27,111 nt of DNA from a virus. Under the pieces are notes generated by a model, which saw nothing but the letters and a program-made list of their open reading frames with translations, was not told where the DNA came from and did no database searches. Numbering within the stretch: the first letter of the stretch is position 1; every line of letters starts with the position of its first letter. Shown here in pieces: positions 301 to 20,752 of this stretch. Position numbers and translations under genes: made by a program. The stretch lies in the IMG/VR virus record IMGVR_UViG_3300046010_011944, positions 1-27,111 of that record, one strand, 5' to 3'.

Positions 301-1107
301 ATGGCCCGCAAAGAAGTAGAACGTGACACCCGCGACTACGATACCACTCAGTTGCATGAGGCCGGCCACGGCCGCACGCTTCACAGAGATTACAGCAGTC
401 ATTTTTTCCGCTGGAGCTTTGCCCGCCGCTTCGTCTCGGCCAAGGACAACGTCCTTGAGGTCGGCTGCGGCGAGGACAAGCCGCTCAGCAAGATCTTGAC
501 TGGTGGCGCAGCTGCCCACGTCGGCCACTACACTGGCGTAGATCTGAACAAGCTCAAGCTGTCCAACAGCCAGCGTCTGGAGTTCCACGGCGAGTTCAAC
601 TTCGTCGAGCGCTATAAGGAGCTGCTGAAGAAGCGACCTGAGGGCTGGGACGTCGTCGTCAACTACGAAGTCATCGAGCACATGAAGGTCGAGCACGGCG
701 CCAGCTTGCTCAAGGCCATGTTCGCCTGCACCAAGCCGGGCGGGGTCCTGCTGCTCTCGACACCGGTCTACGATGGCGTGCGCCATGCCAAGAACCACAT
801 TCACGAGTACAAGGTACCGGAGCTTCAGGCCGCCATCGAGAAGGCGGGCTTCGTTGTCGAGCGTCGCTTCGGCACGTTCATGGACATCAAGCACATCGGC
901 AAGGTCGACCCCACCGGCTGCAGCAAGGCAGCTGTGCTGGAGGTTCGCAAGGCGCTGGAGCAGTACTTCGATAGCGACGCCATCAGCAACATCTTCGGCC
1001 CGCTGCACGAGAACCACTCCCGCAACAACCTGTGGGTCTGCCGCAAAGCAGCTGACGGCAAGCCGGTCAAGCCAGCGGCCCGCAAGACGAAAGGAGCGCC
1101 GTTCTGA
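301..1107 (+). CDS. Class I SAM-dependent methyltransferase
   Basis: This 268-residue protein has a Rossmann-fold methyltransferase core. The SAM-binding glycine loop VLEVGCGEDKPL lies near residues 51-62, the acidic end of strand 2 is in YTGVDLNKLKL, and the motif-IV region WDVVVNYEVIEHM is followed by the GGVLLLSTPVYD strand. A conserved-looking NHIHEY patch follows, typical of UbiG-like small-molecule methyltransferases. The last 20 residues are Lys/Pro/Ala rich and basic. The start has a good ribosome-binding site (AAAGGAG). The stop overlaps the start of the next gene by one base (TGATG), so it is probably co-translated with the nucleotide-metabolism genes. The target cannot be read from the sequence. 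I see none of the usual DPPY or PC DNA-methylase motifs, so a nucleotide, a modified base or a small molecule is more likely than ordinary N6-A or C5-C methylation. Confidence 0.85.
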   Translation: MARKEVERDTRDYDTTQLHEAGHGRTLHRDYSSHFFRWSFARRFVSAKDNVLEVGCGEDKPLSKILTGGAAAHVGHYTGVDLNKLKLSNSQRLEFHGEFNFVERYKELLKKRPEGWDVVVNYEVIEHMKVEHGASLLKAMFACTKPGGVLLLSTPVYDGVRHAKNHIHEYKVPELQAAIEKAGFVVERRFGTFMDIKHIGKVDPTGCSKAAVLEVRKALEQYFDSDAISNIFGPLHENHSRNNLWVCRKAADGKPVKPAARKTKGAPF

Positions 1108-1505
1108 TGATTGGAAACGTTCTGGAGTTTCATGAGAAGTTTGGTCTGCCGTTGGGCAAGGACGATCAGCTCACCCATAACCTGGACGCCACCGTCTTCC
1201 GTCTGAAGTTCCTGCAAGAGGAACTCGATGAGCTGGAAGAAGCTCTGGGCGACGGTGACCGCGTCAAGGCCTTCGATGCGCTGCTGGATCTGGCCTACGT
1301 GGCCTACGGCACAGCGCTTTTCCTGGGCGTCGATCCCGGCCAGTGGCATGCCGGCATGCACGCGGTCCACTCGTGCAACATGGCCAAGGTCCGTGTGGCC
1401 AAGGCTGAGGACTCGAAGCGCGGTAGCGCCTACGACGTCAAGAAGCCTGAAGGCTGGGTTGGTCCTGAGGTTCGCCTGGAGGAGATTCTGTCATGGACCA
1501 AGTAA
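1107..1505 (+). CDS. MazG/HisE-like nucleoside triphosphate pyrophosphohydrolase
   Basis: The 132-residue protein matches the all-alpha NTP pyrophosphohydrolase fold. It has the EExxE metal site FLQEELDELEEAL at residues 35-47 and the paired acidic helix FDALLDLAYVAYG at 56-68 (Asp57 and Asp61). Members hydrolyse (d)NTPs to (d)NMP and pyrophosphate; phage members include enzymes that remove dCTP or dUTP. The N-terminal VLEFHEKFGLP resembles phage HisE/MazG-like proteins. It overlaps the methyltransferase by 1 nt and the next kinase gene by 13 nt, with a strong GGAGGAG site for the kinase inside its end, so the genes are translationally coupled. Given its neighbours, a plausible role is removing an unmodified dNTP, as T4 gp56 does for dCTP, but the substrate is not visible in the sequence. 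Confidence 0.85.
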   Translation: MIGNVLEFHEKFGLPLGKDDQLTHNLDATVFRLKFLQEELDELEEALGDGDRVKAFDALLDLAYVAYGTALFLGVDPGQWHAGMHAVHSCNMAKVRVAKAEDSKRGSAYDVKKPEGWVGPEVRLEEILSWTK

Positions 1506-2407
1506 GCAAGAAGCTAACCATCTTCGAGGGCCCAGACGGCGGCGGCAAAAGCACAGCTGCCCAGGCCTACGCTGAAGCGACTGGCGCTAAGTACGTGCAC
1601 TTCTCTGCTTTGCCACGTGTCAACCATGGGTTGGGACGCGTCTACGTCGAGGCGATGCTGCCGGCCCTGTTGGGGTACCAGGACGTCGTCTTCGACCGCT
1701 GCTGGCTGAGCGAGGTGCCCTATGGCATCGCGTTCCGCGAGGGCAAGGACCGCCTTACCAACGCCAGCCGGCGGATGCTCGAGCGCTTGGCTATGCGGTG
1801 CGGGGCGGTTGTTGTGCGGTGCCAACCTTGCTGGGACGCCGTACGCCTCTGCTACATGTCACGCCGCCACCTGGAGATGCTCACGAACGAGGAGCAACTC
1901 AAGACGGTCTACGACCTCTACTCCGAACAGGTCACCGATCTGCCTGAGCTGGTTTACGACTACACCACGGATGGCGACCTGTTTGCCACGCAGAAACTCG
2001 GGTTCGAGATCGACCACCTGCGCATGCCGCAGCACCCGCTGTACCTCGCCTCGGCTGGCAACTGGGACGGGCGCGTCGTGCTGATCGGTGAGGCATTCGC
2101 TGAGCGCAAGGACCAGGATGCGTTCTACCAGTGGCCCTTCGCCTCGTTCAGCAACGAGGGTTGTAGCCAGTGGCTGACGAATCAGCTCGATTCGATCGAC
2201 ATGGGCGAGCAGGACCTGCTGTGGCTCAACGCGGACCAGGACCTGTCGGTGCTGCATGACCTGCAACATGAGCGGGTCATCGCGCTAGGCACCAAGGCCC
2301 ACGAGCAGCTGTACCGGCTGAAGATCGTGGCCGCCACCGTACCCCACCCTCAAGCGTTTAAGCGCTTCAATGCCAAGCAGCGTTACCCGCTGCTGGATCT
2401 GATCTAG
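1493..2407 (+). CDS. Fusion: P-loop dNMP-kinase-like domain plus UDG-like domain
   Basis: 304 residues in two parts. Residues 6-165 form a thymidylate-kinase-like P-loop domain: Walker A FEGPDGGGKST at 11-21 and a DR-type motif VFDRCWLSEVPYG at 66-78. Residues 180-304 resemble the uracil-DNA glycosylase superfamily: VVLIGEAFAERKDQ at 195-208 recalls the GEAPGxxED motif of family 4/5 UDGs, PFASFSNEG matches the region after it, and VIALGTKAHEQL at 262-273 followed by VPHPQAF (HPQ at 285-287) recalls the C-terminal strand and HPS loop. The Glu of motif A is kept; the usual HPS is HPQ. The fusion lies between a MazG-like and a ThyA-like gene, suggesting phosphorylation of a modified deoxynucleotide, or of a modified base in DNA with the second domain binding DNA. 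Kinase assignment is fairly secure; the UDG-like call rests on motif order only. Confidence 0.8.
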   Translation: MDQVSKKLTIFEGPDGGGKSTAAQAYAEATGAKYVHFSALPRVNHGLGRVYVEAMLPALLGYQDVVFDRCWLSEVPYGIAFREGKDRLTNASRRMLERLAMRCGAVVVRCQPCWDAVRLCYMSRRHLEMLTNEEQLKTVYDLYSEQVTDLPELVYDYTTDGDLFATQKLGFEIDHLRMPQHPLYLASAGNWDGRVVLIGEAFAERKDQDAFYQWPFASFSNEGCSQWLTNQLDSIDMGEQDLLWLNADQDLSVLHDLQHERVIALGTKAHEQLYRLKIVAATVPHPQAFKRFNAKQRYPLLDLI

Positions 2408-2416
2408 GAGGACCAA

Positions 2417-3199
2417 ATGGACTTTTCACGCACCTGGCTCAATGCCCTCAATGACATTCTCACCAATGGCGACCTCGTCAGCCCGCGCGGCAAACTCACT
2501 AAGGAAATTCCGCAGCGCACCATCGTGGTCAATATGCGCCAGCCGGTGCTTCGCGTACCCGACCGCAGCCTGAGCTACCGCTTCATGGTGGCCGAGGCAT
2601 TCTGGATCCTGTCGGGCGACGACCGTGTCGAGACGATCGCGCCGTACAACAGTCGCATCGCCGACTTCTCTGACGACGGCGAGCGCTTCTTCGGCGCCTA
2701 TGGCCCCAAAATCCAGGCCCAGTTGCCCTACGTGGTGGAGAAGCTGCTGGTTGACGTGGACAGCCGCCAAGCTGGCCTGACCATCTGGCGCGAGTGCCCA
2801 CCCCAGACCAAGGACGTACCCTGTACGGTGGCCGCATTCTTCGCCATTCGCGGCGGCAAGGTCAATGTCCACGTGTTCATGCGGTCAAGCGACGTCTGGT
2901 TGGGCGTGCCGTACGACGTCTTCAACTTCAGCATGCTGGGCCACCTCGTCTGCGGGCTGCTGAACGAGCACCGCCTGTCGGACAACCTGCTCAGTCCGGG
3001 CAAGTTGTTCCTGACGGCGGCGAGCAGCCACCTGTACGAGACCAACTGGGACGACGCTAAGTTGTGCTTGGCTGCTACGCCGCTGGATCAACCGGAGACG
3101 CCCAAATCGCTCTGGAACGACCCAAGGTTCCTGCTGGAAGAGCTCAGGATCCTGCGCGACACGCGACCGGGCGACCTGCATCGCTGGTGGGAGGTGTGA
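2417..3199 (+). CDS. ThyA-family enzyme, probable deoxypyrimidine hydroxymethylase
   Basis: 260 residues of the thymidylate synthase / dCMP hydroxymethylase family. Visible landmarks are the general-base Glu60 in the VAEAFWILSGD region, the catalytic Cys136 in DVPCT, the phosphate-binding MRSSD at 155-159, LGVPYD at 162-167 and the HLY pair (His205, Tyr207). Asp167 replaces the Asn that reads dUMP in thymidylate synthase (Asn177 in E. coli); T4 dCMP hydroxymethylase also has Asp there (Asp179). The IWDEW tryptophan region of E. coli ThyA appears here as IADFS, without Trp. These changes plus a separate ThyX favour hydroxymethylation of dCMP over dTMP synthesis. A TAGGAGG ribosome-binding site precedes the ATG. 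The next gene starts 2 nt after its stop. An ordinary ThyA remains possible, since phage families vary at these positions. Confidence 0.85.
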   Translation: MDFSRTWLNALNDILTNGDLVSPRGKLTKEIPQRTIVVNMRQPVLRVPDRSLSYRFMVAEAFWILSGDDRVETIAPYNSRIADFSDDGERFFGAYGPKIQAQLPYVVEKLLVDVDSRQAGLTIWRECPPQTKDVPCTVAAFFAIRGGKVNVHVFMRSSDVWLGVPYDVFNFSMLGHLVCGLLNEHRLSDNLLSPGKLFLTAASSHLYETNWDDAKLCLAATPLDQPETPKSLWNDPRFLLEELRILRDTRPGDLHRWWEV

Positions 3200-3200
3200 C

Positions 3201-3668
3201 ATGCGACCCAGCCGCGACGAATGGGCTCTGAAGTTAGCCCTACTGACTGCCCAACGGACAACCTGCTGCCGCCGAGCGGTGGGCTGCGTGCTGCTGAACG
3301 CACGAGGCCACGTGTTGGCCACGGGCTACAACGGCGTCGCGACTGGGCTACCGCACTGCAACGAGCACGACCCATACTTCGAGACGGGGTTCCCGCACGC
3401 CTGCTCCGGGGCCCAGGCGCCGAGCGGCACGAACCTCGATGGCTGCCAGGCGATCCACGCGGAGCAGAATGCCATGCTGCAGTGCCGGGACGTCTACAGC
3501 ATCCACACCTGCTACGTGACGGCCAGCCCCTGCATGACCTGCATCAAGCTGCTACTCAACACGAGCTGTGAACGAATCATCTTTGTGGAGGAGTATCCGC
3601 ACTCGGCGGCCAAGGAGCTCTGGACAGGCGCTGGGCGGGCTTGGGAGCAGCTTCTTGTGGAGATTTGA
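3201..3668 (+). CDS. Deoxycytidylate (dCMP) deaminase
   Basis: 155 residues with the zinc-dependent cytidine deaminase signature: HAEQNAM at 86-92 (zinc His86, proton-shuttle Glu88) and PCMTC at 110-114 (zinc Cys111 and Cys114). The N-terminal RRAVGCVLLNARGHVLATGYNG is typical of dCMP deaminases (ComEB / T4 cd type), as is the insertion before the HAE motif. The reaction is dCMP to dUMP plus ammonia, feeding thymidylate synthesis, presumably by ThyX. It is the last gene of the rightward row and is followed by the convergent terminator region. A GGGAGG site precedes the ATG. The enzyme is usually regulated by dCTP and dTTP; the sequence alone does not show whether this holds here. Confidence 0.93.
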   Translation: MRPSRDEWALKLALLTAQRTTCCRRAVGCVLLNARGHVLATGYNGVATGLPHCNEHDPYFETGFPHACSGAQAPSGTNLDGCQAIHAEQNAMLQCRDVYSIHTCYVTASPCMTCIKLLLNTSCERIIFVEEYPHSAAKELWTGAGRAWEQLLVEI

Positions 3669-4954: not shown

Positions 4955-5228
4955 TGGGTACTCCAGAAAAAAGAACCGCCAAAGTAGTTACAACCACCAC
5001 CGGAACCAGCAAATCAAACTGCGCATCCAGTGACCATTCCCAAATCTTGAACGCCGGGAACGGGTTACTGCGATCCTTGCCGCTGATGATTTCCTCGCGC
5101 TGAGAATGCTCGCGGCCAATGAAGAACCCGATGGCAAGAGCAGCACCAACCCACCAGTAGCCGAACATCCCGAACGGCAACTGCATCAGCAGGGCGTAGC
5201 CGGCGTGCTCGAAGTTCGTGCTGTTCAT
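4947..5228 (-). CDS. Small two-helix membrane protein upstream of endolysin
   Basis: 93 residues with two predicted membrane segments: QLPFGMFGYWWVGAALAIGF (about residues 16-35) and DLLVPVVVVTTLAVLFSGVP (about 72-91). Between them is a charged loop (REHSQREEIISGKDRSNPF). The start codon overlaps the tail-fibre stop in an ATGA junction, so it is translated from the late transcript. Between the fibre and the endolysin it could be a second holin-like or accessory lysis protein; no diagnostic motif is visible. Confidence 0.75.
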   Translation of the reverse strand: MNSTNFEHAGYALLMQLPFGMFGYWWVGAALAIGFFIGREHSQREEIISGKDRSNPFPAFKIWEWSLDAQFDLLVPVVVVTTLAVLFSGVPNG

Positions 5229-6919
5229 TTTGACGCCTTAAGCATATCTACCTCTGCTTTCAGCTCCTGCACCGCTTTAACAAGCACGGCCAGCAGATTC
5301 TGATCTACCAACTTGAGCTTATTCTCGTCTTCTGCGTCAACGATTACCGGGGAATCCCCCTCAAGAGCAAGAATGTCTTGTGCTAAGAATCCGTATCTTG
5401 TATTTCCATTTGCCTCATCTGAATCACGGTTGAGTTTATATTTGTAGCTCACTGGCTTGAGCTGACTCACAAAATTTAATCCATGGGGGACTTCGCCAAT
5501 CTCGGTCTTATCCCTTGCGTCTGATACAACCGTCCAGGCAACCTGCACATAGGCATTGGTAATCGCCGTGTGGCCCATGACAAGACGATTATTTTCCGTT
5601 GTTGGATCAAACACTGGAACATACGCATCCGCAGAACTGTGGAATCCAATACCAATATTGCCTTTACCAGTCGTATTGTTTTTAAGTGCGGCGATTCCAA
5701 GCGCCACATTATCTATGCCTGTCGTGTTGCCGAATAAGGCACGATAACCAACTGCGGTATTTTGGTATCCCGAGGTATTGTTGTAAAGCGACTGAAATCC
5801 TAATGCTGCATTGTTTATTCCTGACAAGTTATAGTACATCGACTGAGCGCCGACGCTTGCGTTCTGGTATCCGGTTTCATTGGTATAAAGCGATTGGTAT
5901 CCTGCCGCTGTATTGTTGTAACCGGAAATGTTGTTGTAAGCTGACAGCGCGCCAAGCACGGCGTTCCGGTATCCTGTCGTGTTATCATAAAGGGCAGTCC
6001 TCCCGCATGCGGCATTTTCATACCCAGTGGTATTGCTATAAATTGCACCGAGTCCTATTGCGGTATTTTCGCTACCAGTCAAACTGCTGTAAAGCGCATC
6101 GTTTCCAATAGCTACATTATTCCCACCAGTTGTATTAGAAAAAAGCGCAGCATATCCGACCGACACGTTGGCATTTCCTGAGGTGTTTGAGTACCCTGCT
6201 TGAAACCCAAGAGCGGCGTTATACTGCCCTGTTAAATTTCCCCAAAGAGCTTTGTATCCAACGGCTAAATTGTCTTCCCCTGTGGTATTGGAGAACATGG
6301 ATTGATAACCGAACGCTTGGTTATTAAACCCGGAAATATTTTGGTATAGCGCACGATACCCAATTGCGCACAAATTTTCACCAATCGTGTTGGCTTTAGC
6401 GGACTCATATCCGACCGCAGTATTGTTAGTCGCTGTTGTGTTTGAATAAAGCGAGTCTCGGCCAACTGCGGTATTGTTATATCCAGATATGTCATTTGAC
6501 ACAAGCGCATTCTTGCCTAGAGCTGTGTTCTCAACTCTATTACCAGTACCCCGCCCAATAGTTACCCCATTTACAACAATGTCGTTATCGCCACCAGATG
6601 TGAAGCTGAAAGGAATTCTCTGCGTGCATGTTAGCGACGAATACACAAGGCGTCCGTGTTTATCCTTTAATAAAATGGAGTAATCATCTACGGCGGCAAA
6701 AATACGAACAGGCGAACCGCTTACGACAGGGTATCCTCCACTTGTACGAACAGGCTGTGCTATCGGCACAGCAAGCCCAACATCGGAATAAACGGTTATA
6801 GGATTAGTTTCTGGATTTAGGCCGGCGGTGCCAACATAAATATATCCATCATCCACCTGATTCCCGTCAATATCAGTAAAAATCGGGAAGGGTACACTAA
6901 GTGAAACAATCGAACTCAT
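5225..6919 (-). CDS. Tail fibre/spike: P22-like head-binding domain, 17-residue repeats, S74 chaperone
   Basis: 564 residues with three parts. Residues 8-95 (PFPIFTDIDGNQVDDGYIYV, ITVYSDVGLAVPIAQPVRTS) resemble the P22 tailspike head-binding domain, which attaches the spike to the tail hub. Residues about 130-425 contain about 17 copies of a 17-residue repeat of the type NTAVGYxALYxNTTGYx, as in YadA-head-like or shaft beta structures. Residues about 460-564 form an intramolecular chaperone of the peptidase S74 family, with the VVSDARDK site (Ser466, Lys471) where self-cleavage would release the chaperone after trimerisation, and a C-terminal coiled coil (VKAVQELKAEVDMLKASK). No endoglycosidase beta-helix is seen. 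The DNA is visibly richer in A+T than its neighbours, suggesting the receptor-binding part was exchanged. Confidence 0.92.
   Translation of the reverse strand: MSSIVSLSVPFPIFTDIDGNQVDDGYIYVGTAGLNPETNPITVYSDVGLAVPIAQPVRTSGGYPVVSGSPVRIFAAVDDYSILLKDKHGRLVYSSLTCTQRIPFSFTSGGDNDIVVNGVTIGRGTGNRVENTALGKNALVSNDISGYNNTAVGRDSLYSNTTATNNTAVGYESAKANTIGENLCAIGYRALYQNISGFNNQAFGYQSMFSNTTGEDNLAVGYKALWGNLTGQYNAALGFQAGYSNTSGNANVSVGYAALFSNTTGGNNVAIGNDALYSSLTGSENTAIGLGAIYSNTTGYENAACGRTALYDNTTGYRNAVLGALSAYNNISGYNNTAAGYQSLYTNETGYQNASVGAQSMYYNLSGINNAALGFQSLYNNTSGYQNTAVGYRALFGNTTGIDNVALGIAALKNNTTGKGNIGIGFHSSADAYVPVFDPTTENNRLVMGHTAITNAYVQVAWTVVSDARDKTEIGEVPHGLNFVSQLKPVSYKYKLNRDSDEANGNTRYGFLAQDILALEGDSPVIVDAEDENKLKLVDQNLLAVLVKAVQELKAEVDMLKASK
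5645..6532 (-). repeat. About 17 degenerate 51-bp coding repeats in tail fibre
   Basis: The segment encodes consecutive 17-residue units such as NTAVGRDSLYSNTTATN, NNVAIGNDALYSSLTGS and NTAVGYRALFGNTTGID. The protein pattern is regular but the DNA copies are diverged, so this is an old repeat maintained by selection on structure. It would form the fibre shaft. Confidence 0.9.
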
Positions 6920-18676: not shown

Positions 18677-20752
18677 TCACTGCTGTGGCGCTTGAACTGC
18701 CACAACGGTGGTATCTGGTTGTGCAGGTGGTTGGGCGCCGAAGCGATCGATGACTTCCAAGGCTTGCTGTTGTTCACCTGCATCGATGTCTGCCAATGTC
18801 TTCATGGTCTTGGCCTTGGTTTCCTCCGCCTGCGCCACTGTGAGGACAGTCTTGGCCCGTGCCTGAGTAGCATTGGCTGAAGCTTCCTCAGCTGCTGCTT
18901 GCAAGTACTGCGTATTCGGATCAGGTTGTGCATTCACTTGAGCATTTGCCAACTGCTGAGCTTCTTCGTCAGTCGGAGCCACGGCGCCGAGTTTCAAGAG
19001 CTTCTTGCGGAAGAAGTCACGTACCTCACTGATGCCCTCACCTTCCATGTTCATCATGGCCATGGCCTGCAATACCTGTGTCGTCTCAGGATCCTGTGTG
19101 ATGGCCATCATGCCAGTCAGGGCACGTACTGTGGCAGCTCGCTTGCTGGAACTCGATGGGCCAACCTGCACATCGACGTCGAACTTGGCGTTGGACAGGT
19201 CGTTCTCAGTCTCCATCTCGCCAGTTTCCTTGTTGACCATTGGCCGCATCAACTCAACTGTGCTCATCTCACCTTGGACACCAATGCCCTTCATCTTGCG
19301 GTTCGGCTCAACCAGTACGTCCTTGGCCATGGAGAGCCAAATCTCACCAGAACGCTTCACGGCCTTGGCCATGTTGCTCATGTAGATGAACGTCTGCATG
19401 TCCAGCTTGTTTTGGATCAACTCAACTGCTTTCCCACTAATGTTCGGTTGCATCTGCTCACCAGCTTCCTGGTTGCCAAGCAGTGCCTGCATGTCTTGGT
19501 CTGTGATCTGAAGCAGAGCTGCCATAGCCGGCGGGATCATTGGGGCCTTGGTGTAAGCAACTGGTCCACTGGTCTGCTGGTTGCCATTCAGATCCATGAT
19601 GGGATTGATCAGCAAGTAAGGATAATTCTTGACGTTGTCCTCGGACCACATAACTTGGTGGCCAGCGATCTGCTCTGGCGTCAAGATGGGCTTCTCCACC
19701 GAAGAGAGTGCGCTGATTTCACCCAACTTGCTGAGTTGCATGTTCTTCAGGCGTTGGGTATCCTTGGCCAGACGTACGTGACCCATGCAGCGCTCGACGT
19801 TGTCGATGAACCAGCGCTTGCCATAGACAGGCACAATGGGGATGCAGCTGCCGGCGATATAGCCACAGTCCTCAAGCACTTTGCCACCGGATAGGATGTA
19901 CTTATGTACACGGCGCTTCTTGATCTTCTTGGTGCGAACCAGTTTGCTGCCAATGGCAAAGAGTTTCTCCTCAAGGGCATCGTCGTCCTCAAAGTCCTTA
20001 TCGGTGTAGCGCGACTCCTCGCCATCAAGCGATTCCCATACTTGCACCTGCTCGTTGGTCTCCTCGACTCGGTAATACTCAGCCACAAAGACGACATTCG
20101 GAGACGACCAGTCGAATTCGTATTGGTGAATCTCCTTCGGCCACGAAGATGGATCATCTCCGTACTCATCTTCGTAGGCACCTGGCGTCATGGCCGTCAG
20201 GACGAAGCACTTCTTGGCATCAGCCTTGTCTTGGCGCTTGGCCTGCAAGTCGAAGAACACGGAACTGTCTGCGTCGAAGATAGGTTCGATGCGAATGCGC
20301 TGGCGCTCATCTTCTGGGTCCTCATCATCCTCGTACGCGGTGCGCAGACGCCAAGCACCGAAGCCGCCACCAACCGCCTCCTCGAAGGCGTTATCGTAGG
20401 CCTCATCGGCCACGCTGTCCTGCTCATCAGCGCGATACAGATCGTCGCAGGAATCAGCGAGCTTGTCGTATTCCTTGCCCTCCTTGCTGACGAAGTCGAC
20501 GGTGATGCGGTTGTTGCGGTACTCGTTGATAATGCGGATGACGGCCAAGTGAATCTTGTTGACCTCGAACTTCGGCTTATTCTCGAACTGGTCACCAAGT
20601 GGACCTTCCCACTGGGCACCAGCAATCGAGTAGAAGCGGCGGTCTTGCAGGCACTGCAGGCGTTCGTCGCGCAAGGCAGACTGGATCTTGTCGAACTCGA
20701 CCAGAGCTTCTTGGTGGATTGCAGCCAGGCGTTCGGCTTTTGTGCGTGTCAT
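18677..20752 (-). CDS. Portal protein, P22 gp1-like
   Basis: 691 residues from the ATG at 20752 (P22 portal has 725). That start is chosen because AGGAAA precedes it and it lies 1 nt after the terminase stop; the frame extends 15 codons further upstream. The sequence contains QWEGPLGDQFENKPKFEVNK and RIINEYRNNRITVDFVSKEG, typical of P22-type portals, and a helical C-terminal barrel from about residue 590 (YLQAAAEEASANATQARAKT). Twelve copies form the vertex ring through which DNA is packaged and ejected. Confidence 0.94.
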   Translation of the reverse strand: MTRTKAERLAAIHQEALVEFDKIQSALRDERLQCLQDRRFYSIAGAQWEGPLGDQFENKPKFEVNKIHLAVIRIINEYRNNRITVDFVSKEGKEYDKLADSCDDLYRADEQDSVADEAYDNAFEEAVGGGFGAWRLRTAYEDDEDPEDERQRIRIEPIFDADSSVFFDLQAKRQDKADAKKCFVLTAMTPGAYEDEYGDDPSSWPKEIHQYEFDWSSPNVVFVAEYYRVEETNEQVQVWESLDGEESRYTDKDFEDDDALEEKLFAIGSKLVRTKKIKKRRVHKYILSGGKVLEDCGYIAGSCIPIVPVYGKRWFIDNVERCMGHVRLAKDTQRLKNMQLSKLGEISALSSVEKPILTPEQIAGHQVMWSEDNVKNYPYLLINPIMDLNGNQQTSGPVAYTKAPMIPPAMAALLQITDQDMQALLGNQEAGEQMQPNISGKAVELIQNKLDMQTFIYMSNMAKAVKRSGEIWLSMAKDVLVEPNRKMKGIGVQGEMSTVELMRPMVNKETGEMETENDLSNAKFDVDVQVGPSSSSKRAATVRALTGMMAITQDPETTQVLQAMAMMNMEGEGISEVRDFFRKKLLKLGAVAPTDEEAQQLANAQVNAQPDPNTQYLQAAAEEASANATQARAKTVLTVAQAEETKAKTMKTLADIDAGEQQQALEVIDRFGAQPPAQPDTTVVAVQAPQQ

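Follow-up and report, generated by a model that had tools for sequence, protein, structure and literature searches.

The open reading frame at positions 1493..2407 (+ strand) of the window, the whole stretch of 27,111 nucleotides of viral DNA that was analysed, encodes a protein of 304 amino acids in which a P-loop kinase of the thymidylate-kinase (TMPK) type is joined to a true uracil-DNA-glycosylase (UDG) superfamily domain. Full-length versions of the fusion occur in about 35 distinct loci, drawn from viral contigs, MAGs and phage genomes, and both the kinase half and the UDG half are under purifying selection: most pairs gave dN/dS values of 0.03–0.22, and in one pair the UDG half reached 0.44. 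The protein is proposed to be a kinase of modified dCMP in a T4-like cytosine-replacement pathway, with the UDG half as a fused quality check, and a probability of about 0.45 is given to this chain as a whole. None of the open-access papers found describes the fusion, and for the UDG half the view of the initial annotation that no function is settled for this architecture still holds.

The UDG-superfamily domain comprises approximately residues 185–304 (2045..2404, +). The window sequence alone is too divergent to be matched by Pfam UDG; PF03167 matched six of 32 relatives (best E 2.4e-4), and a profile of the 32 relatives compared with the PDB gave family-4 UDG or UdgX in 24 of 27 rows, each of them weak (E about 1). 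The domain-only AF2 model had a pLDDT of 89, and the first 36 rows retrieved with it by Foldseek were all UDGs, the best being that of T. maritima (E 2.6e-4). In the VIA fold search family-4 UDG and UdgX were again on top (Z 10–10.7, the best over 121 residues at 3.0 Å), and the structure of the phiLo family-A polymerase was among the UDG-fold matches (Z 9.1). The AF2 input alignments were shallow (12 rows and 32 rows), and the motif-A loop was the least certain region of the model (pLDDT 59–75). A chance resemblance of motifs in this half was rejected by fold, profile and selection. The initial annotation had described residues 180–304 as a UDG-superfamily-like domain, and the fold check of these residues agreed, with UDGs on top and no unrelated fold; its extent was slightly corrected, the core starting at about residue 185.

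UDG motif A with the stacking Phe, G199-E200-AFAERKDQDAFYQWP-F216 (2087..2140, +), and motif B, H285-PQAFK-R291-F292 (2345..2368, +), were assigned by alignment to UdgX, together with N246 (2228..2230, +), the equivalent of the uracil-binding N91 of UdgX. The order of acid, aromatic stacker, Asn and motif B His is that of the UDG superfamily. Among the 32 relatives, F216 (UdgX F65) is conserved in 31, N246 in 30, H285 (UdgX H178) in 30 and R291 (UdgX R184) in 31, while the position of E200 (UdgX E52) is occupied by E in 17, D in 12, Q in two and L in one, so that an acidic residue is kept in 29. Conservation of the four pocket columns (F, N, H and R) exceeded that of columns drawn at random from the domain (P = 0.0016). 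In UdgX, F65 stacks on the base, N91 hydrogen-bonds uracil and R184 contacts the DNA backbone (PMC10359453, PMC10776899); the presence of N246 favours a uracil-type base edge. Motif B has the form H-P-x-x-x-[KR]-R-F in the window, in phage G gp315 and in DSL-LC01 among the aligned members.

The motifs named in the initial annotation do map onto motifs A (GEQPG..PF) and B (HPS..R184) of UdgX, with the reservation that in motif A the P and the final G of GEQPG are lost, their places being taken by F202 in 27 and A203 in 21 of the 32 relatives. The GE[AG]PG motif A of family-4 UDG is thus not retained. The four Fe-S cysteines of family 4 were likewise missing from most of the domains, which have one or two Cys (one in the window), only three members having four, and the alignment showed no counterpart of the UdgX KRRIH loop with its cross-linking His109 after N246-A-D. 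Lacking the Fe-S cysteines, the PG of motif A and the cross-linking loop of UdgX, the domain belongs to the UDG superfamily outside family 4 and UdgX as these are defined.

The gene order, conserved among relatives, is methyltransferase, pyrophosphohydrolase, kinase-UDG, synthase homologue and dCMP deaminase. The 5' end of the kinase-UDG gene overlaps the pyrophosphohydrolase gene by 13 nt and the synthase-homologue gene starts 9 bases after it, so the fusion gene is part of an operon. The SAM-dependent methyltransferase (Methyltransf_23; 301..1107, +; Pfam 1.5e-13) adjoins the cassette in most relatives. The all-alpha NTP pyrophosphohydrolase (MazG/DR2231-like; 1107..1505, +; PF01503 1.4e-10; PDB DR2231 1e-4) is a candidate dCTPase/dUTPase as judged from its sequence. 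The thymidylate-synthase homologue is located at 2417..3199 (+; PF00303 4.8e-20) and the dCMP deaminase at 3201..3668 (+; PF00383 1.3e-18; phrog_174 2.6e-35). An assignment of the methyltransferase to CmoA, the Cx-SAM synthase of the carboxymethylcytosine system (PMC12783734), was rejected, the NCBIfam matches being UbiG/Hen1-like instead.

The rest of the 27 kb virus record contains terminase, portal and primase genes, and no tRNA or Rfam features were found across the 27,111-nt window. A short ORF at 70-252, perhaps only the last part of a gene that begins outside the window, carries the C-terminal motif MEGKLTDxxIFxxVxxxYG...NPPEA, which almost all relatives conserve ahead of the cassette. 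At 5225-6919 (-) a probable tail protein of 564 aa has many repeats of N-T-G-x-x-N-x-A-x-G type, and towards its C-terminus it is similar to a tail-fibre chaperone domain.

The modified base was assigned to cytosine because the position that decides between dUMP and dCMP is occupied by Asp in all 36 aligned synthase homologues, those of the UDG-less cassettes L050, L052 and L055 among them; Asp is also present in ct3Et533, MedDCM and HTVC119P. This deciding role is that of Asn177 of ThyA (PMC5175136, PMC8670742), to which Asp167 of the window (codon 2915..2917, +; E. coli numbering 177) corresponds. The closest solved relative of the synthase homologue is the CMP 5-hydroxymethylase MilA (1.3e-16). 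The protein is predicted from its sequence to act on dCMP, as a hydroxymethylase or methylase, and the added group is most likely hydroxymethyl rather than methyl. In MetaGPA this Asp and the families PF00303, PF01503, PF00383 and PF14437 occur together on modified-cytosine contigs (PMC8670742), and all four families were detected in the window with Pfam. The window also brings a dCMP deaminase, an NTP pyrophosphohydrolase and a kinase together in a single operon, as expected of a T4-like hmC pathway.

Additionally, phage AXL3 has the same operon and fusion (gp29) as the window, and its DNA was cut by only two of 37 enzymes, TasI and Tru1I (AATT and TTAA) (PMC7504290). MluCI and MseI, which have these same sites, digest T4 DNA completely, whereas the SP8 phage DNA with 5hmU is resistant to only 8% of enzymes (PMC7653180). 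The AXL3 restriction pattern thus points, indirectly and by analogy, to modified cytosine in phage DNA; it is compatible with modified G as well as with modified C, and no gene of the cassette suggests modified G. A hmU/thymine pathway was rejected by Asp177 in 36 of 36 homologues together with the AXL3 digest. The connection with hydroxymethylated nucleotides made in the initial annotation is supported by these data, whereas its hypermodified-thymine setting has to be replaced by a cytosine one.

Almost all of the approximately 35 loci have the full-length relative within the same operon, L047 being the exception. UDG-less kinases occupy the same operon slot in L050/L052, L055, ct3Et533 and MedDCM, and that of HTVC119P is placed directly before the synthase; the kinase therefore works without the UDG half. 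In the kinase tree the rows with a UDG half cluster together, save for a single UDG-less row on a long branch (L055), which suggests, at the level of sequence, a single fusion event in the clade of the window. The same architecture was found far off, by a fold search of viral models, in gp315 of Bacillus phage G, whose matches to Pfam UDG (1.5e-12) and to Thymidylate_kin (1.1e-6) each exceed the cutoff. In the alignment gp315 is missing the stacking Phe motif. Its gene is near those of a dCMP deaminase, an Asp-type synthase homologue and two annotated alpha-glucosyl transferases. A third version, in the Actinomycetia phage DSL-LC01, is encoded directly before an Asp-type synthase and a dCMP deaminase, and its UDG half was recognised by motif alignment and not by Pfam. 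The fusion thus recurs beside a dCMP-type synthase in at least three distant phage lineages.

Several further observations were made in these relatives. The two transferases of phage G, gp306 and gp313 (L066:13188-14597 (-) and 18759-20141 (-)), have described T4 homology (PMC6024577); gp306 matches the T4 DNA alpha-glucosyltransferase family (1.2e-10), which suggests glucosylated 5hmC in phage G DNA. In a 504 kb contig related to the phage G cluster (L069:8989-10649), the UDG half is shortened and motif B is missing, and an intein-like insertion is apparent in the dCMP deaminase gene. Five relatives (L032:6252-7574, L037:5224-6570, L038:2282-3352, L045:6546-7610 and L048:6366-7475) have a C5-cytosine-methyltransferase-like gene between the methyltransferase and the pyrophosphohydrolase, with PF00145 matches of up to 4e-16 in the two tested. 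This gene is puzzling, as C5 would already be substituted by the dCMP-type synthase; a hypermodification of the 5-substituent is conceivable. Upstream of the cassette in L039:3069-6120, L052:4385-7445 and L058:5561-7568, at the place of the methyltransferase of most relatives, a block encodes a protein with the motif GASFE(H/A)DHGWRN and a PLP-dependent-like enzyme (PALP), joined in L039 and L052 by an SGNH-like protein; this block has the look of a gene set for DNA hypermodification. The UDG half and the methyltransferase gene are not strictly coupled, since L039, L042 and L058 have the UDG half without the methyltransferase and ct3Et533 has a methyltransferase without the UDG half.

In the proposed pathway, the NTP pyrophosphohydrolase would clear unmodified dCTP (and dUTP), the synthase homologue would put a one-carbon group, most likely hydroxymethyl, on dCMP, the dCMP deaminase would get rid of surplus dCMP, and the kinase half would phosphorylate the modified dCMP, which we infer to be its substrate, towards the triphosphate for the DNA polymerase. 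The UDG half would be a quality check beside the kinase, recognising a pyrimidine that is wrong or deaminated (U or 5hmU, a product of the neighbouring dCMP deaminase or of deamination of the modified base), and would excise it either at the fork, from DNA, or directly from the nucleotide. Standard UDGs exclude 5hmU. This exclusion, the uracil-type edge favoured by N246, the deaminase in the operon and the origin of 5hmU by deamination are the reasons for which a fused domain that clears U/5hmU is preferred. Compared with a repair UDG, the UDG half is far shorter and no longer has the Fe-S part, but its uracil-type pocket is retained; it would read the pyrimidine base and perhaps have glycosylase activity. 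It is also possible, by analogy, that its pocket fits the modified base (5hmC) itself, as Brig3, a bacterial UDG-superfamily defence protein, excises 5hmC and, weakly, U (PMC13160076). The suggestion of the initial annotation that the second domain inspects modified nucleotides is in accordance with this proposal.

On the other hand, other points weigh against the chain. Glycosylase activity may be lost in some members, as the acid varies (E/D/Q/L) and phage G is without the stacking Phe; the UDG half is not essential to the pathway, as cassettes without it exist; and spontaneous deamination may be of little weight for a fast-growing phage. The stronger version, in which a UDG enzyme was recruited as a built-in proofreader, so that one polypeptide would charge modified dCMP and would destroy or reject dUMP, 5hm-dUMP or their bases in DNA, is considered rather unlikely. 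If this version is true, the glycosylase would guard a non-canonical genetic alphabet instead of repairing the canonical one.

A tentative alternative, almost as likely as the clearance of U/5hmU, is that the UDG half is a purely binding, non-catalytic module, which would anchor the protein to DNA or to the replisome or would act as an allosteric base sensor tuning the kinase; its pocket would then have been retained solely to bind. The variable acid position beside the nearly fixed binding residues F, N, H and R, the loss of the Fe-S region and the loss of the stacking Phe motif in phage G are consistent with it, as are the UDG-fold match of the phiLo family-A polymerase and the N-terminal UDG domain of the DNA polymerase of SPO1, a 5hmU phage (PF03167 1.5e-22). 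No such N-terminal domain was found by Pfam on the polymerases of AXL3 or ctUtU524. However, H285 and the acid at E200 are kept in most members, and pure binding would not clearly need them.

The kinase half, which in the preferred reading charges modified dCMP, comprises approximately residues 7–170 (1511..2002, +). Its Walker A motif G13-PDGGGK-S20 (1529..1552, +) has G13, G18 and K19 invariant and S or T at position 20 in 45 of 45 kinases, and in its DR motif D68-RCWLSEVPY-G78 (1694..1726, +) D68, R69, S73 and Y77 are invariant in the same number. The PHROG profile match was thymidylate kinase (phrog_761, E 2.1e-13), while Pfam and NCBIfam detected only the P-loop in the window sequence. 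In the full-protein model (AF2, pLDDT 86) the kinase matched YorR of SPbeta, thymidylate kinases and deoxynucleoside kinases (Z 12–14). The P-loop, the DR motif and the fold are therefore of TMPK type, and the assignment to the thymidylate-kinase type on the basis of Walker A and DR motifs in the initial annotation was confirmed. Position 78 of the DR motif is G in 38, A in six and S in one of the 45 kinases, and aligns with the Gln of ...AYQ in the Aquifex TMPK. In TMPKs this Gln, following the conserved Tyr, contacts thymine. Because it is replaced by Gly, Ala or Ser, a base other than thymine is plausible for these kinases, a weak indication taken from the alignment.

The protein was annotated as a thymidylate kinase in the RefSeq records of AXL3 and phage G, and dTDP synthesis was proposed by the AXL3 authors (PMC7504290). 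It is nevertheless improbable that the protein supplies dTMP as an ordinary thymidylate kinase while its UDG half does no more than repair uracil in the DNA of the phage. Weak matches to TIGR00041/PF02223 were obtained in 12 of 12 members tested, but the TIGR00041 (dTMP kinase) score of 18.3 bits is far below the curated cutoff of 83.25, the thymine-contacting Gln is replaced by a small residue, and a dCMP-type synthase adjoins the gene in every locus checked, so that dTMP is not made by the route of the operon.

Less probable still is a kinase acting on DNA, with the UDG half flipping a hydroxymethylated base and the kinase half phosphorylating its 5-hydroxymethyl group, a hmC version of the 5-hmU DNA kinase analogy put forward in the initial annotation: UDG folds do flip bases and 5-hmU DNA kinases are P-loop enzymes (M6 control; activity in PMC7653180), but all that the window protein has in common with HMUDK is the P-loop fold, its best structural matches are nucleotide and nucleoside kinases, and homologous UDG-less kinases fill the same operon slot. 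No match to HMUDK (PF18748) was obtained in the window family with Pfam (E 0.1-1), the M6 5-hmdU DNA kinase used as positive control matched it at 7.7e-18, and membership in the 5-hmU DNA kinases was rejected on this basis. The kinase profile of the window did not find the M6 enzyme (E 1.9) and found UDG-less phage kinases at 1e-14 to 1e-30, mostly from similar cassettes. The analogy was therefore abandoned in favour of a modified-dCMP kinase.

Because the kinase-UDG pairing recurs in very distant phages, a UDG half of repair type was probably given a new job in the handling of modified DNA letters. Phages that replace a base must bar wrong letters from the pool and from the genome, and this policing is poorly known; one purifiable protein of about 300 residues and the cultured phages AXL3, PW916 and phage G make the question testable. 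The finding of a kinase-UDG protein also corrects the records in which these proteins are named plain thymidylate kinases. The bacterial proteins Brig1 and Brig3 attack the same modified cytosines, and the UDG fold would thus stand on both sides of the conflict.

In T4, gp42 is the dCMP hydroxymethylase of the hmC pathway, which also includes a dCTPase and the dNMP kinase gp1. The window shares with this pathway an Asp-type synthase homologue, a dCMP deaminase, an NTP pyrophosphohydrolase and a nucleotide kinase, and its relative AXL3 has a restriction pattern like that of T4; unlike T4, the window kinase is TMPK/YorR-like with a UDG half, and a conserved SAM methyltransferase is present instead of a known glucosyltransferase. 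The kinase fold and motifs are those of YorR of prophage SPbeta (PDB 3kb2, 2axp) and of phage thymidylate kinases (phrog_761), but YorR has no UDG half. The 5-hmdU DNA kinases (HMUDK, phage M6) are likewise P-loop kinases in a phage base-modification setting, but constitute a separate profile family, act on hmU in DNA and have no UDG half.

Among the UDGs, family 4 (Tth UDGa, TM0511) and UdgX of M. smegmatis are like the UDG half in fold (Z about 10) and motif order, and have in common with it the pocket residues F65, N91, H178, R184 and mostly E52. The UDG half differs from them in its length of about 130 aa against approximately 190–205, in the absence of the Fe-S cysteines and of the KRRIH loop, in having GE[AS]FA instead of GEQPG with three extra residues before PF, and in its fusion to a kinase. 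Brig1 and Brig3 (PMC13160076) are UDG-superfamily proteins that meet (glucosyl-)5hmC, as the pathway of the window may do; they are compared here by description, and they are single-domain bacterial defence proteins that destroy phage DNA. The gp31 polymerase of SPO1 is also a UDG-fold domain fused to a replication enzyme in a phage with a modified pyrimidine; its UDG domain is polymerase-fused and closer to family 4 (PDB 4e-28), and the DNA of SPO1 contains 5hmU, not modified cytosine.
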